The notes under the pieces: model-generated
What the model was told of the DNA's origin: nothing
The model's input: the letters and a program-made list of their open reading frames with translations, nothing else
Database searches by the model: none
Made by a program: the position numbers and the translations under genes
Shown here: positions 17,085 through 22,501 of the stretch, piece by piece
How the letters are laid out: the number at the start of each line of letters is the position of its first letter
Position numbering within the stretch: the stretch's first letter is position 1
Source: Saccharomonospora piscinae
GTDB taxonomy: Bacteria; Actinomycetota; Actinomycetes; Mycobacteriales; Pseudonocardiaceae
DNA: 64,000 bases
Direction: 5' to 3'
Assembly (NCBI RefSeq): GCF_005862235.1
Contig: NZ_VCEK01000003.1
Location: 664,079-728,078, forward strand

Positions 17085-19283
17085 CTACCGCGCCCCCCTT
17101 CCGGGTGACACGAGCGCCGACACGGTCGTGGCCCCCAAGGCGGCGCCGCCGAGCACGCACGCTCCCGCGTGAACGAACAGCCCGAGCGTGTCGGGCGACG
17201 GCTCGGAGGTCACCGACAGCAGCGGAGGCACACAGGCCAGTGCCGTGAGCAGCCAGGTCAGGGGACTGTGCGTGGTCGCGGTGCGCACGCTGTGCAGCAG
17301 GGACATCCCGAGCAGCAGATGCACCACGCTCTGCACCGGGTCGAGCAGCACGCCCCGCAGCCAGGGTGGCTCGGCGTCCAACGTGGTCAGCGCGAAGCCG
17401 AACACGCCGAGCACGGCGAACCCGAATCCGGCCGCCGTCGCGGCGTGGGACAGCGCCCGGCCGAGTACGCCCGGCGCCGTCGTCCACACGGGTGGTGGTG
17501 GCTGGTGCCATCGTTGCCGTTCGAACCAGGCGAACACGAGCACGGCGGGCGCGGTCAGCAGCGCGATCGCGAGCAACAACCGGGGCTGGACCTCACTGCT
17601 CCAGCCGAGCCCCTGCTCGAGTCGTCGCGGCAGGTACACCGCCGCGAGCAGCAACAACAGGGCGGCGAGATACAGCAGGTAGAGCGTCATCGGTGCGCGC
17701 GCCGCCAGCCCGGCCTGACGCAGCACCGAGGGCCGGTGGACGATCGGGACCAGCCGTCGCCGGAGCAGTCCCAGAGCCGCGAGATGCACCACCCCGAGCA
17801 GCAGCACTGCCGTGGTCGGGCCCGAGAGCGCGGGCGGAGCGTCGTCCACCCCCAGCACCGTGGCAGGCAGCGTACCGGTGGCGACGCCGAGACCGAGCGC
17901 TGCCAGCGCGCTCACCCCCGCTAGAGCCATCCTGCTCCGGGAGGGGACCAGACCCTCCCGGTGGGCGAACGCGGCCTGCTGGGCCAACAGGGCCAGCGTG
18001 AGTGTTCCCGCGTGATGCGGCCACGAGGCGGCGGTCCGGGTGCTCAGCCACTCGGCCGCCGCCAGCGCCAGTATCAGCGCGAGTGGGACCGCGGCCGGAG
18101 CCCTGCGGTGCAGCGTCAGCATCGCGGGCGTGAGGACCACGGTGAGCACGTGGAATCCGAGCAGCCACAGCGGGTGCAGTGCGGTCCGCACCACCGCCTC
18201 ACCGGTGGCGGGAGGTATCCGCAGCAGTTCCAGCGCCAGCGGGACGGTGCTGGCCGCGACCGCGAACACGAGGGTCAGCCGTAGCAGCGCGCTGCCACGG
18301 TGGGAGAGGTAGGTGCGGACCCCGCCGCCGCGTAGCCGGGTCTGGGTCCACGTGCTCGCGTTGGCGTGCCCCGCTGCGAAGAAGAACACCACCGTGGTCT
18401 GCGCCGCCCACGTCAGCGGCCAGAGCCATGCGCCGTCGATCCCGGCCCAGGTGGCGAGCCGGACCGCGGACTCACCGAGGATCAGTGTCACCAGTGCGGC
18501 GACACCGAGCAGCGTCCATGGTGTCGCCGGGGGCAGTGAGCGCCGCCAGCGCCCGAGGTCGAGCCGGGGCAGGGCCCACCGCTGGGGAGCGGGGCGGTCG
18601 CGCAGCCGGTGCCACGAGAGGACGCCGATGGCCGTGACACCGGCCAGCAGCGGCAGGAGCGGCTCCCCGACGGGTGGCCCCCACCGCTGGTACCACGAGT
18701 TCGCCACGAGCCCCGCCGTGTACACGGAGGCGACCGACCGGCACAGGGAGTGTGTGCCGAGCGGGTTGGCGTCGCACGTGGCGGCCATGTCCGCGGACAA
18801 CCGGTGATCCAGCGACTCCCGCAGTTCGGGCGCCAGTGGCTCGCCCTTCCGCTCGGCGTAGCGCAGGAGGTCGTAACCGAGATCATGGGACCGGCACGGT
18901 GTGCCGAAGTTCCACCGCGTGCTGTCGTCGCCCCAGGGGGCGGAACAGCCGCCGCCGACGTGGACGGCCCTGATCGTGCCGTCGAGGGCGCGCTCGGTCG
19001 CCGCCTCGACCCTGGTGATGGCCGCGAAGTCGGGGGGCAGCAGCGCGAGGGCCTCGGCGGAGCGCCGCGGATCGAGCAGCGCCTCCACGGCGCGTTCCGC
19101 CGCGGGGTTGGACCCCGTGGCCGACCCCGTCACGTCACCGCTGCCGGGATGCGGTGGAGGTTCGGCCTCGGGGCGGGACGCTATGACGCCGAACCCCGCG
19201 ACCACGAGCACCAGTAGCAGGAGCCGGGCGACGCGGCCACGCGGCAGCCGTCGGCGCGGACGCGGTATCCGGCTGGCTGGCAT
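17085..19283 (-). CDS. Phospholipase A2 domain fused to a polytopic membrane domain
   Basis: 732 residues. After an N-terminal anchor or signal segment (LLLLVLVVAGFGVIA), residues ~65-195 form a prokaryotic secreted phospholipase A2 domain. It contains GGGCSAPWGDD (calcium-loop region), C130, the catalytic pair H133-D134 in CRSHDLGYD, and the second disulphide pair C170/C181. From ~205 on there are about twelve hydrophobic segments resembling acyltransferase-type membrane proteins, including HANASTWTQTR and TLYLLYLAALLLLLAAV. The PLA2 domain would lie outside the cell and release fatty acids from phospholipids. The role of the membrane part is unknown; it might re-acylate or export the product. 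Confidence 0.75.
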   Translation of the reverse strand: MPASRIPRPRRRLPRGRVARLLLLVLVVAGFGVIASRPEAEPPPHPGSGDVTGSATGSNPAAERAVEALLDPRRSAEALALLPPDFAAITRVEAATERALDGTIRAVHVGGGCSAPWGDDSTRWNFGTPCRSHDLGYDLLRYAERKGEPLAPELRESLDHRLSADMAATCDANPLGTHSLCRSVASVYTAGLVANSWYQRWGPPVGEPLLPLLAGVTAIGVLSWHRLRDRPAPQRWALPRLDLGRWRRSLPPATPWTLLGVAALVTLILGESAVRLATWAGIDGAWLWPLTWAAQTTVVFFFAAGHANASTWTQTRLRGGGVRTYLSHRGSALLRLTLVFAVAASTVPLALELLRIPPATGEAVVRTALHPLWLLGFHVLTVVLTPAMLTLHRRAPAAVPLALILALAAAEWLSTRTAASWPHHAGTLTLALLAQQAAFAHREGLVPSRSRMALAGVSALAALGLGVATGTLPATVLGVDDAPPALSGPTTAVLLLGVVHLAALGLLRRRLVPIVHRPSVLRQAGLAARAPMTLYLLYLAALLLLLAAVYLPRRLEQGLGWSSEVQPRLLLAIALLTAPAVLVFAWFERQRWHQPPPPVWTTAPGVLGRALSHAATAAGFGFAVLGVFGFALTTLDAEPPWLRGVLLDPVQSVVHLLLGMSLLHSVRTATTHSPLTWLLTALACVPPLLSVTSEPSPDTLGLFVHAGACVLGGAALGATTVSALVSPGRGAR

Positions 19284-19370: not shown

Positions 19371-20765
19371 TCACCGCGGTACGGGCGCGAACCGGACGCG
19401 GTTGCGTCCCGCCTCCTTCGCCTCGTAGACCGCGGTGTCGGCGGCCTGCAACAGGCCGTCGAGATCGTCGGCGTGCCGGGGAAAGACGGCGACGCCGATA
19501 GAGGCCGTGCGCCCGCTGATGGTCGCCTGCGCACCCCGCTTGTCGGTGGTGGGAATGCGCAGAGCGGCGACGGTGGTCCGGACACGTTCGGCGGCGAGTT
19601 CGGCGGCGGCGGTGTCGGCGTCGGGCAGCAGTAGCAGGAACTCCTCGCCGCCGAACCGGCCCACGACGTCGGCGGGCCGGGTGACCCCGGACAGCGTGCT
19701 CGCGATGGCGGCGAGCACGTCGTCGCCTGCCGGGTGCCCGTAGGTGTCGTTGATCCACTTGAAGTGGTCCAGGTCGACCATGAGCACCGCGAGTGTGCTG
19801 CCCGCTCTGCGGACACGGTTGAGCGCGCGGTCGGCGGACTCCGTCCAGCCACGCATGTTGAGCAGCCCGGTCTTCGGGTCGGTCACCACCGCGTCCTGTA
19901 ACTGGTCCAGCTCGGCGAGCCGGTTGAAGACCACCGTCACGACCGCCATGATCGCCACCGAGGGCGGCAGGACGACCACGAGCACGGCGGTGACGGCGCC
20001 GAGCCCGATGGTGACGGCCTCCAGCAGGTTGTCGGCCTTGCCGCCGAGCACCGTGCGCAGTGTGGGGGCGTGCGAGCCGAGCACGAGGATTCCGCCGACG
20101 TAGCAGACCTGCACGACCTCGTACACCAGTGCCGTGACGAGGATGAGTCCGAACTCGCGCAGTGACCCCGGCACGGTGAGTGTCTGCCAGTCCTGGGGGC
20201 CCATCGAGTTGTAGGCCAGGTTCGCGAGCGCGGCGGCCAGCCCGTGGGAGATCGACGAGTACACGAAGTTGTGGGCGGGCCTGCGCGCGGTGAACCAGCG
20301 CTGCACGCGGATCACGACGACGAGGAGCACGGCGAGCGTGGCCGGAAGCACCAGTGTGGCCGGAAACACCCACACCGCCGTGAGGTCGATGAGCACGGTC
20401 TGGGTGCGGTTGCGCCGACGTTCCTCCTGCCGGTGTGTGAACTGGATGTGGGCGGTGGCGCCCGCGCCGAGGATCGCGAACGTGAGCCAGTCCTGCCCCA
20501 CCGGCAGCGGGGACCGCGCGAACGCGGCGGTGAACCCCGCGATCGACAGCACTTCCATGGTCAGCAGGAAGACGACGAAGCGGCGGGGCCGCGTCCACAG
20601 CGCCCAGTGCCGCGGCCACAGTGCCGCGCGGCGCGACGCGGGCCGGTGCCGGTTTCCCGGCGCGTGCGGCGGCGACTGCCCGGTCATGGCATCCGTGTCC
20701 GTGCCCGGTGAGGAATGGGAAGTAACGATTTCTGGCGACGGCCGATCCTGGGGAATGAGCGGCAC
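19371..20765 (-). CDS. Membrane-bound diguanylate cyclase (GGDEF)
   Basis: 464 residues from GTG 20765 (AGAGGA eight bases before). About six membrane segments (residues ~60-270) form an unnamed sensor region. The GGDEF domain follows (~290-460), with an intact active site GGEEF at 372 and an allosteric I-site RPAD exactly five residues before it. It should make c-di-GMP from two GTP and be product-inhibited. There is no EAL domain. It is transcribed away from the hexapeptide micro-ORF array, whose first ORF lies about 240 bp upstream. Confidence 0.9.
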   Translation of the reverse strand: MPLIPQDRPSPEIVTSHSSPGTDTDAMTGQSPPHAPGNRHRPASRRAALWPRHWALWTRPRRFVVFLLTMEVLSIAGFTAAFARSPLPVGQDWLTFAILGAGATAHIQFTHRQEERRRNRTQTVLIDLTAVWVFPATLVLPATLAVLLVVVIRVQRWFTARRPAHNFVYSSISHGLAAALANLAYNSMGPQDWQTLTVPGSLREFGLILVTALVYEVVQVCYVGGILVLGSHAPTLRTVLGGKADNLLEAVTIGLGAVTAVLVVVLPPSVAIMAVVTVVFNRLAELDQLQDAVVTDPKTGLLNMRGWTESADRALNRVRRAGSTLAVLMVDLDHFKWINDTYGHPAGDDVLAAIASTLSGVTRPADVVGRFGGEEFLLLLPDADTAAAELAAERVRTTVAALRIPTTDKRGAQATISGRTASIGVAVFPRHADDLDGLLQAADTAVYEAKEAGRNRVRFAPVPR

Positions 20766-21002
20766 TCGCCAATCCTCTCGCGTGTGTCGGTCGTGGGGGC
20801 CCCTCCGAACCGGCCTCCGAAGCCGGATTGGGGAGATCCACGGCGGGACGAAGCAGCGTTGGTGACCGGTATCATCTCACCGCACCGAAGAATGGCGTAC
20901 GCGAACCCGTCCGACTGTAGCCTGGGGGCAGCACGGATCGCCGTCCCGTCGGCCGGTATTCGAACTCGGTACGAACTTGGCCGTGAGTGGAGGTGTTCTC
21001 CC

Positions 21003-21023
21003 TTGTCCGACCGCGATTTCTGA
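21003..21023 (+). CDS. Micro-ORF 1 encoding hexapeptide MSDRDF
   Basis: TTG start, six sense codons, TGA stop. GGAGGTG lies seven bases upstream of the start. The peptide MSDRDF is repeated by the next unit with synonymous changes, which argues for selection on the peptide. No tiny peptide family with this sequence is known to me. Confidence 0.5.
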   Translation: MSDRDF

Positions 21024-21070
21024 CCTAGAACTGACAGGCCGACGGCACTGATGTCCTGGGGAGGTGCACC

Positions 21071-21091
21071 GTGTCCGACCGCGACTTCTGA
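21071..21091 (+). CDS. Micro-ORF 2 encoding hexapeptide MSDRDF
   Basis: GTG start, TGA stop, GGGGAGGTG four bases upstream. It differs from unit 1 at the start codon and at the fifth codon (GAC for GAT), both silent. It lies 68 bp downstream of unit 1, and a short GC hairpin follows the stop. Confidence 0.5.
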   Translation: MSDRDF

Positions 21092-21170
21092 GCCGAGCCC
21101 TCGGGCTCGCGCACACCCGGTCCCTGTTACGCGACGGCACCATGTCTTGACCACCCAGGAGGTGTTCGCC

Positions 21171-21191
21171 ATGACCGACCGTGATTTCTAG
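21171..21191 (+). CDS. Micro-ORF 3 encoding hexapeptide MTDRDF
   Basis: ATG start, TAG stop, AGGAGGTG six bases upstream, the strongest SD of the three. Differences from units 1 and 2 are Thr for Ser (conservative) and CGT for CGC (silent). It lies 100 bp after unit 2. No plus-strand gene follows for about 1.6 kb, so it is not an upstream ORF of a normal gene. Confidence 0.5.
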   Translation: MTDRDF

Positions 21192-21292
21192 TCCTTGTCT
21201 TCGTGCTCGTTGTCGGATAGCCATTTTCGCCGACCTCACGCCGTGAGTGGCCGGGCACGATCAGGTGATCGTCCTCGGCGAAGCCCGGACGG

Positions 21293-22465
21293 TCACGGTG
21301 TGGTCCGCCGCACCCGTGACCAGGACACGGCGACCGGGATCGTGAGGACCACCCCGGCCGCTCCGGCGAGCGCGATCGTGGTTGTCGCGGACCCGACGAG
21401 GTCCGCGACCACGCCGCCCAGCGCCACGCCCACGCCCTGTGCGACGCGCAGGCCCGTGCGGTAGACACCGCCCGCCCCACCGCGGAGTTCGTTGGGCACC
21501 CAGGTGATGAACGTGGCCCCGACGGTGATGATGTAAGCCCCGGCGGCCCCCGCGAGCATCAGCAGCAACAGGGCGAACGGCAGTGTCGGAGTGAGGGCGA
21601 AGCCGACGAGAACGGCTGCCGCGGCCGTGGCGAGCAGGCCCATCACGCGCCTGCGGTTCTCGGCCGAAACGAACCGCGACAACACGAACGTCCCGAGGAT
21701 GAACCCCACCGGATCGGCGGCGAGCAGCCAGCCGACGGCCTGCGGGGAGGCTCCGATCTGGTCGGCCAGCGGTGCGGCCAGCCCTTCGGGGATCACCGCG
21801 AGCCCCACCAGCCACGACAGCGCCAGCAGCACCCGTAGTCGCCGCTGGCCCCAGACCCACCGGACGGCCGTGAACCAGCCGTCGCCGGGATCGCCCGCGG
21901 CCGGACGTGCCCGCACGCACAGCTGGACGAGCGCGGCGGCGACGACGAAACTCGCGGCGTCGAGGGCCAGTGCCCACGACGGCCCCAGCGACGTCACGAG
22001 CAGTCCTCCGCCACCGAATCCCGCGAGCATCGCGATGTTGGCGGTGATGCCACGCAGGTCCTGGCTGCGCAGATACAGCTCGTCGGTGAAGATCTCCCTG
22101 GTCAGGGCGTTCTGTGCCGCGTTGGCCGGGGCACCTGCGAGCCGGGCCAGCACCACCAGCGCACACAGCGGCGCGAGCGGCATACCGGGGATCGCCATGC
22201 CGCCGACCAGAAGTGCCTGCGTGGCGGACGAGATCACCAGCACGGCCTTGCGCGGGTAGCGGTCCGCGATCTGGGCGAGCCCGAGACCGCCTGCGAGAGC
22301 GGGAAGGAACGTCAGGGCGTACACCACGGCGGCCCACAGCGCGGAGCCCGTGCGGTTGTACACCATGATGGACAGCGCCACTGTCGTGAGGTGGTCGCCG
22401 AGGACGGACTGGGCCTCCGCGATCCACAGCGCCCGGAACTCGCGGTTGCGAAGAGCGTCACTCAT
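21293..22465 (-). CDS. MFS transporter
   Basis: About 390 residues with 12 hydrophobic segments. It begins MSDALRNREFRALWIAEAQS, the usual opening of the DHA3-like/enterobactin-exporter (EntS) type of the major facilitator superfamily, and has the loop motif IADRYPRKAVLV between helices 2 and 3. Starts at 22465 (ATG) and 22501 (GTG) are both open and neither has a good SD; I follow the family start. It is probably a drug or metabolite exporter; the substrate is unknown. Its 3' end faces the hexapeptide array. Confidence 0.88.
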   Translation of the reverse strand: MSDALRNREFRALWIAEAQSVLGDHLTTVALSIMVYNRTGSALWAAVVYALTFLPALAGGLGLAQIADRYPRKAVLVISSATQALLVGGMAIPGMPLAPLCALVVLARLAGAPANAAQNALTREIFTDELYLRSQDLRGITANIAMLAGFGGGGLLVTSLGPSWALALDAASFVVAAALVQLCVRARPAAGDPGDGWFTAVRWVWGQRRLRVLLALSWLVGLAVIPEGLAAPLADQIGASPQAVGWLLAADPVGFILGTFVLSRFVSAENRRRVMGLLATAAAAVLVGFALTPTLPFALLLLMLAGAAGAYIITVGATFITWVPNELRGGAGGVYRTGLRVAQGVGVALGGVVADLVGSATTTIALAGAAGVVLTIPVAVSWSRVRRTTP

Positions 22466-22501
22466 CCGGGCCGCTGTCGTGGTAGCTACCAACCTCGTCA
22501 C

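Follow-up and report, generated by a model that had tools for sequence, protein, structure and literature searches.

What purpose could be served by three tandem genes of six codons each, lying by themselves between two genes on the other strand? The question is raised by a 64,000-nt stretch of the Saccharomonospora piscinae genome (hereafter the window), in which a first-pass annotation had reported three micro-ORFs reading M[ST]DRDF, each behind a strong Shine-Dalgarno (SD) sequence, in a 527-bp intergenic gap between minus-strand genes and with no plus-strand gene following for 1.6 kb. All of this was confirmed (Table 1), and a pattern of SD plus degenerate codons matched the window three times and 100 dinucleotide-preserving shuffles not at all; the readings MSDRDF, MSDRDF and MTDRDF take the start codon (TTG, GTG and ATG, respectively) as Met. 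The gene orientations and the distance to the next plus-strand gene also support the view, put forward in the same annotation, that these are not ordinary upstream ORFs. Attenuation leaders and uORFs lie upstream of the gene they control and on its strand; the window units resemble them in being very short ORFs with strong SDs, but they are repeated, and the genes to either side run on the opposite strand.

Unit 1 is in frame with a longer, 102-codon ORF (20715-21023), which we take to be incidental because the SD plus short-peptide unit recurs across relatives. Words resembling a -10 element, chosen by eye, were found 59–215 nt 5' of unit 1 at 28 of 48 loci of the window's family (near-duplicates dropped) against a shuffle expectation of 0.35, and a strict sigma-70 scan gave no promoter match at the window array. 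At the gathering threshold, Rfam returned only three tRNAs in the 64-kb window and no known riboswitch or RNA family at the array. Beyond the cyclase gene, positions 17085-19283 (minus strand) encode a protein of 732 aa that combines a prokaryotic phospholipase A2 domain with a long hydrophobic part; a protein with this domain also adjoins the cyclase at one other locus (L166) and is absent among the proteins scanned in family f21.

Table 1 Features of the micro-ORF locus, in window coordinates.
Feature	Position	Strand	Basis or remark
SD of unit 1, GGAGGTG	20989..20995	+	sequence
Micro-ORF 1, TTG start, MSDRDF, TGA stop	21003..21023	+	SD plus unit pattern; also in six genus loci
SD of unit 2, GGGGAGGTG	21058..21066	+	sequence
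Micro-ORF 2, GTG start, MSDRDF, TGA stop	21071..21091	+	SD plus unit pattern, genus loci
SD of unit 3, AGGAGGTG	21157..21164	+	sequence
Micro-ORF 3, ATG start, MTDRDF, TAG stop	21171..21191	+	SD plus unit pattern, genus loci
Candidate -10 element of array promoter, TATCAT	20870..20875	+	putative; 127 nt to unit 1
Membrane protein with GGDEF (diguanylate cyclase) domain, 464 aa, divergent to array	19371..20765	-	Pfam GGDEF 2.8e-45
Cyclase N-terminal multi-helix domain, part co-varying with peptide	19890..20615	-	AlphaFold model (pTM 0.76) and distance correlations
MFS transporter, convergent with array, frequent but optional partner	21293..22501	-	Pfam MFS_1 2.8e-24
Intergenic gap of 527 bp holding the array	20766..21292		flanking genes both minus strand
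Next plus-strand gene, SDR	begins 22831	+	1.6 kb from array

Micro-gene arrays beside one class of membrane cyclase

Beyond what the first-pass annotation had described, the arrays accompany one class of membrane diguanylate cyclase, reach well outside the genus and change their peptide with the cyclase. The exact unit pattern occurred in 7 of 12 genomes of the genus and in 13 of 297 genomes of the family, spread over 5 of 46 genera, and a reversed control gave no matches. In a collection of named genomes a looser pattern returned 18 stretches, 16 of them in Saccharomonospora, Prauserella, Amycolatopsis, Thermocrispum and Haloechinothrix, and the other two in an actinomycete MAG and a Eubacterium MAG; the last of these (L027, MHDRDF), which has no cyclase match within its 8 kb, was taken as a chance match. 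The strict pattern missed five genomes of the genus: L044 has three units differing in synonymous codons or SD letters, L238 carries MTGRDF and MSGRDF, a third locus (L237) has a run of N upstream of the cyclase gene, and two genomes, 82–83% complete, gave no cyclase match.

Homologues of the window cyclase were found at E-values up to 1e-80 in 54 of 130 genomes of the family. Its membrane domain alone, as the query, found homologues in 22 of 246 genomes of the class (the window's own included), from families f1, f8, f21, f30 and f33, those outside f1 sharing about 33–39% identity with the window protein. We counted units in a set of 88 cyclase loci, 55 from the window's family and 33 from others, in which near-identical loci were kept. 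By unit motifs written after the peptides had been seen, SD-led units on the divergent strand were present at 85 of these loci, at least two at 70 and at least three at 52, with 304 units in total. A motif-free rule (at least two SD-led micro-ORFs sharing their last three residues) picked out 68 of the 88 loci against 0 of 1760 shuffles and never exceeded one on the opposite strand, and neighbouring pairs sharing their last three residues occurred only at these arrays in 598,344 strand-bases of the window and wider contexts. The check for conservation in relatives that had been suggested for the window units was strongly positive, with tandem copies recurring at the 70 loci just counted. From start to start, neighbouring units lie a median of 73 nt apart (middle half 69–76.5, n = 219).

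Three of the 88 loci had no unit by the motif rule. The first, L099, has ORFs with a doubled core, MRDTNWVLRDTNWSW, of which about five repeats (one broken by a run of N) lie between the MFS and cyclase genes (L099/L160, genome G522), the second, L121, is the tandem neighbour of L099, giving one array for two cyclases, and at the third, L089, no unit was found. A search of five genomes for GGDEF proteins (47 places, 30 loci examined, with a flank of 1.5 kb, perhaps too short to reach the start of the longest genes) found an array of at least two units beside 10 of 11 loci with a homologous membrane domain and beside 0 of 19 loci without it; the one exception (L198) is a tandem second copy beside an array-bearing cyclase. 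One genome (G014) has three such cyclases with three peptides (MSDRAW, M[CRG]SRDN and M[AR]NRDS), and two more (G398 and G479) also have three cyclases with different peptides each.

The units encode 5–9 residues, with no export leader, and across all peptides the last residue may be F, W, T, D, S, N, R, A, G, P, Y, M, L or E. In the window's family the peptides include M[PASTR]GRDF (x6), MSSRDF (x10), M[SA]NRDF (x4), M[ST]DRAW (x3–4), MSDRDW with MTDRDW, MRDRDM, MRDREA, MDREY and MSRDW/MRSRDW (x11–13), the last in two of the largest arrays, of 13 units (L156, G087) and 11 units (L157, G126) within 1.1 kb. In f21 they are heptapeptides, such as MRGNSWD (x2–6), MRDNTWT (x4–8), MRDTTWS (x4–11), MRDNNWN (x8) and MRANSWD (x2–5). 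On plasmid p1 of Pseudonocardia sp. DSM 110487 (NZ_CP080522.1, L175), three MRNHNW units lie divergent to a gene annotated as a GGDEF protein, and the PLSDB table, which is incomplete, shows no gene across them. This plasmid-borne module adjoins a prolyl oligopeptidase family peptidase and has no MFS match in 9.3 kb. At the homologous place in Nonomuraea gerenzanensis (NZ_LT559118.1, Streptosporangiaceae) we found MRGVTWT and MRWEPIRWQ.

With the f33 membrane domain as the query, homologues appeared in 54 of the 246 genomes of the class, from 24 of 104 genera and from eight families, f1 among them. Five of the 30 loci from this query were already in the set, and under a looser SD rule and a motif chosen after a first look, 13 of the other 25 had a micro-ORF on the divergent strand whose peptide ends in W or Wx (MLRGVTWT, MSSGVQWV and MRSVQWA x2 are examples), with 16 matches on the divergent strand, none on the other and 12 loci having none. 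The signal in these other families thins, the recognisable micro-ORFs being mostly single copies. Several of the single octapeptide units beside distant cyclase homologues (L215, L218, L229, L232 and others) read xxxGVxWx, possibly a further branch of the system. A profile search with the membrane domain across 346 genomes of the phylum gave matches in three genomes, one of them the window's own, and the two new loci (L123 and L124) had no array.

Constraint on the peptide and its variation with the membrane domain

Leaving aside the codons by which the units had been picked out, 785 within-array comparisons showed differences at codon positions 1, 2 and 3 in 10, 10 and 102 cases, respectively, the comparisons being all pairs within arrays and so not independent. 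The codon differences comprise 106 synonymous and 4 non-synonymous changes, which supports the earlier proposal that the peptide itself is under selection, and inside six single arrays (L094, L096, L097, L101, L102 and L114) Ser switches between AGC and TCC. Start codons are ATG (166), GTG (92) and TTG (17) and stop codons TGA (267), TAA (6) and TAG (2); Arg is encoded by CGC (156) or CGT (149), with three other codons once each, and Phe by TTC in 107 of 107 cases, a bias which we take to resemble the codon choice of highly translated genes. The 20-nt flanks of the units differ at 59% and 63% of positions. Inter-unit spacers are less folded than their shuffles (mean z +0.63, 183 spacers), and a role for RNA structure is therefore unlikely. 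Spacing stays at ~73 nt despite ~60% spacer sequence difference between units, and no structure accounts for it. These comparisons show both the conservation of the predicted peptide and the array structure.

The GGDEF domain of the window cyclase, its sole Pfam match, scores 154.4 bits against a curated cut-off of 23.8, and the residues R363, D366, G372, G373, E374 and E375 (RxxD and GGEEF) are invariant in 30 aligned cyclases. We take GG[DE]EF to be the active-site motif and RxxD the inhibitory site of a diguanylate cyclase, and the window protein should be such an enzyme, making c-di-GMP. For the membrane domain alone, AlphaFold predicts eight main helices, of which two are short (pTM 0.76, mean pLDDT 77.5). 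Pfam finds nothing above cut-off in this domain of the window protein (5TM-5TMR_LYT, E 0.017), and MASE9 matches 2 of 29 members, at best 2.1e-4. The protein is like MASE-type membrane cyclases (Pfam MASE9, 5TM-5TMR_LYT) in joining a multi-helix N-terminal domain to GGDEF, but differs in that its domain reaches no Pfam cut-off, and we know of no MASE-type cyclase that comes with a peptide array. With the membrane domain as query, Foldseek found nothing at E ≤0.001, the top match being a CcmC chain (E 0.29, probability 0.35). Nine of the best 20 matches were chains of ECF transporter S components (ThiT, RibU and another), with probability up to 0.91, target TM 0.42–0.56 and E 0.33–2.1; S components are small-ligand-binding membrane proteins. 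The whole cyclase structure, when searched, matched GGDEF structures in the 50 matches listed.

In a tree of the cyclases (88 rows), peptide type goes with the cyclase clade and not with the genome. We calculated rank partial correlations on pairwise distances, dropping loci less than 3% apart and off-pattern peptides. Given the catalytic domain, peptide and membrane domain correlate at 0.515 in the window's family (49 loci) and 0.527 in f21 (28 loci), both at the permutation floor of 0.003, where the permutation p-values ignore part of the phylogeny. Peptide and catalytic domain given the membrane domain gave -0.18 and 0.00 in the two families, peptide and MFS given the membrane domain -0.33 and 0.05, and peptide and MFS given the catalytic domain 0.02 and 0.19 (f21, p 0.03). 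Shared inheritance of the array and the adjacent coding end of the membrane domain could mimic co-evolution; the array-proximal MFS end, equally close on the DNA, shows no co-variation in either family. Among MFS-bearing loci only (37 and 24; 999 permutations), the correlation with the membrane domain given the array-proximal MFS half was 0.594 and 0.626 (p 0.001), and that with the array-proximal MFS half given the membrane domain -0.36 and 0.08. In f21 the picture is less clean, with 0.30 (p 0.001) for the distal MFS half once the catalytic domain is controlled for. When only the slowest 50% of membrane-domain columns were used the correlation was kept (0.51 and 0.46), and with the slowest 30% it was 0.55 in the first family but dropped to 0.23 in the second, f21, less than the 0.47 then reached there by the catalytic domain.

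In an exploratory segment-by-segment analysis, residues 167–187, 200–228, 244–266 and 267–283 co-vary with the peptide in both families (partial r 0.38–0.56 given the catalytic domain), residues 54–84 and, most strongly, 153–166 (0.66) mainly in the first family, and residues 112–125 (0.53) and the linker 284–295 (0.48) mainly in f21. Loops 85–90 and 188–199, placed outside by charge, were weaker (0.24 and 0.29; -0.07 and 0.16). That the co-varying segments are mostly not predicted extracellular loops does not favour a simple outside-in receptor, and their positions hint that binding might take place inside the helix bundle or from the cytoplasm. These analyses show, for the predicted proteins, co-diversification of peptide and membrane domain and a near-exclusive partnership of the arrays with this cyclase class. 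The co-diversification and the different peptides of paralogues would be compatible with a peptide that works as a receptor-specific signal.

Candidate functions of the arrays

We consider it probable, at roughly 0.6, that the short leaderless peptide is a dedicated regulator of the adjacent membrane diguanylate cyclase. A divergent promoter would give an mRNA with several ribosome sites, each yielding one peptide per pass, so that the strong-SD micro-ORF array would supply a leaderless peptide of about 5–9 residues (core xRDF in the window), which would bind the N-terminal multi-helix domain of the cyclase and shift c-di-GMP synthesis by its GGDEF domain up or down. Repetition at intervals of ~73 nt, with a ribosome site for every copy, would raise peptide output per mRNA, because so short an ORF holds only about one ribosome. 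Since each paralogous cyclase comes with a peptide of its own, the pairs would be kept insulated from one another. The MFS, where present, may export the peptide, whilst the MFS-free arrays and the positions of the co-varying segments would allow an intracellular role. We infer translation, binding, the direction of the effect and export from comparisons of DNA and predicted proteins. The first-pass annotation had offered three roles, of which a signal-like peptide fits best, with the adjacent cyclase as its likely target; ribosome-acting minigenes fit poorly, and for a modified-peptide precursor no linked P450 or radical-SAM enzyme was found in the window or among the neighbours scanned at other loci. 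An evenly balanced proposition is the wider one, that these loci represent a new signalling class, in which tandem micro-genes, among the smallest protein-coding genes known, would encode leaderless ligands of 5–9 residues for a new family of membrane diguanylate cyclases, in insulated pairs, often with an MFS, in several actinobacterial families.

The nearest known likeness in signalling is to the RRNPP systems (Rap/Phr, PlcR/PapR), in which a longer precursor is exported and cleaved to give a peptide that binds a TPR regulator in the cytosol. Short lineage-specific peptides are common to both, as would be a specific receptor and insulated paralogues; here, by contrast, 5–9 residues are all that each gene encodes, there is no leader, and the target that we propose lies in the membrane, a cyclase with GGDEF as its sole Pfam match.

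A special case of the regulator reading, tentative though not far-fetched, is that the peptide is a secreted signal, exported by the MFS and read by the cyclase from outside or after re-import, so that c-di-GMP would report density or kin. An MFS homologue lies near 70 of the 88 loci, in both well-sampled families (42 of 55 loci in the window's family, 28 of 33 in others), and its place varies (beyond the cyclase in L111, flanked by two cyclases in L160), so that more than a frozen gene order is involved. Arrays of several copies accompany the MFS, at least two units being present at 64 of 70 loci with it and at 6 of 18 without it (related loci, which are not independent), and the peptides are lineage-specific, as a secreted signal might be. 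Against secretion, 18 of the 88 loci show no MFS (two of these, L104 and L138, end at contig ends), and a strict rule linking MFS to copy number is refuted by the arrays of 13 and 11 units, which have no MFS within 3 kb; the MFS is therefore optional. Peptide divergence is also untied to the MFS in the first family (-0.33) and only partly tied to it in the second, the predicted extracellular loops do not stand out, and the peptides lack an export leader.

We regard as unlikely the proposal that the units are minimal precursors of ribosomally made modified peptides (core R-D-x-x-W or x-R-D-F), with the enzyme encoded elsewhere and with cyclase and MFS providing regulation and export. Biarylitide precursors, the obvious comparison, carry the motif MxYxH, and the pentapeptide type is not matched by the xRD[FW] or RDxxW cores seen here. 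The biarylitide precursor is described as having 5 residues and an 18-bp gene, close in size to our units and likewise tiny enough to escape annotation, and it comes with a dedicated P450; the units here form tandem arrays with a diguanylate cyclase partner, and no P450 lies in the window. The doubled core in one ORF at L099 suggests that a five-residue core is cut out, a point in favour of modification. The f21 MFS resembles the ryptide exporter (NCBIfam NF041056), an MFS also proposed to export a very short peptide, but the match is far under the model cut-off (18.9 vs 575 bits). The window's genome has 14 P450 and 9 radical-SAM matches, none of them inside the 64-kb window, and among 30 proteins scanned around 11 other loci (part of the neighbourhoods; three are cyclases or MFS) there was no peptide-maturation enzyme and no family except the MFS common to the window's family and f21. 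A distant enzyme is the form of this proposal that could still hold; by itself it leaves the tie to the cyclase membrane domain unexplained.

Less likely again, and improbable overall, is a transcript that acts in cis and for which the ORFs would be no more than an aid, through antisense or divergent transcription across the promoter of the cyclase or the 3' end of the MFS gene or, where the MFS is missing, as the leader of whichever gene comes next. Such a transcript would suit the window array, which diverges from the cyclase gene and converges with the MFS gene, and the constant array spacing in spite of diverged spacers, but selection acts on the peptide, the spacers are unstructured, and arrays persist without an MFS and beside tandem cyclases. 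At three MFS-less loci with one unit each (L023, L082 and L054/L166, the last in genome G054), an SDR gene lies downstream on the same strand as the unit, which may have a leader role there. Other MFS-less single-unit loci are L055, L067, L068 and L069, and L023, L031 and L037 are the counterparts of the last three. The weakest proposal, that the units are ribosome-acting minigenes whose function is peptidyl-tRNA drop-off or stalling and not the free peptide, draws on very short tandem ORFs with strong SDs and near-exclusive CGC/CGT and TTC codons, but is very improbable given that the last residue and codon vary, that synonymous and AGC/TCC changes leave the amino acids as they are, and that peptides specific to paralogues and tied to one receptor-like cyclase class would go unexplained.

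The regulator reading appears to have no published precedent. A collection of 5.39 million open papers, with few subscription papers and preprints among them, searched for the peptide strings and for cyclase, short-peptide and tandem-ORF topics, held no description of the system, in support of the first-pass statement that no such family is described; the one match to a peptide string was unrelated chemistry. We rate the predicted system as new as a whole, assembled from known parts (GGDEF, MFS). To our knowledge, the input signals of c-di-GMP signalling are mostly unknown, and if the regulator reading is true, the arrays would provide a genetically encoded peptide ligand for it. Genes of 5–9 codons, invisible to annotation, would then be a conserved part of bacterial regulation, and the loci would offer ready-made, possibly orthogonal peptide-receptor pairs. 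With what we presume to be the BldD-like site motif, loose matches were found in 12 of 85 regions and strict ones in 2 (L072 and L073), counts that have no chance control. Development and secondary metabolite production are under c-di-GMP control in streptomycetes, according to a published account (PMC7026642), and by that token the module may switch development and secondary metabolism in its hosts.
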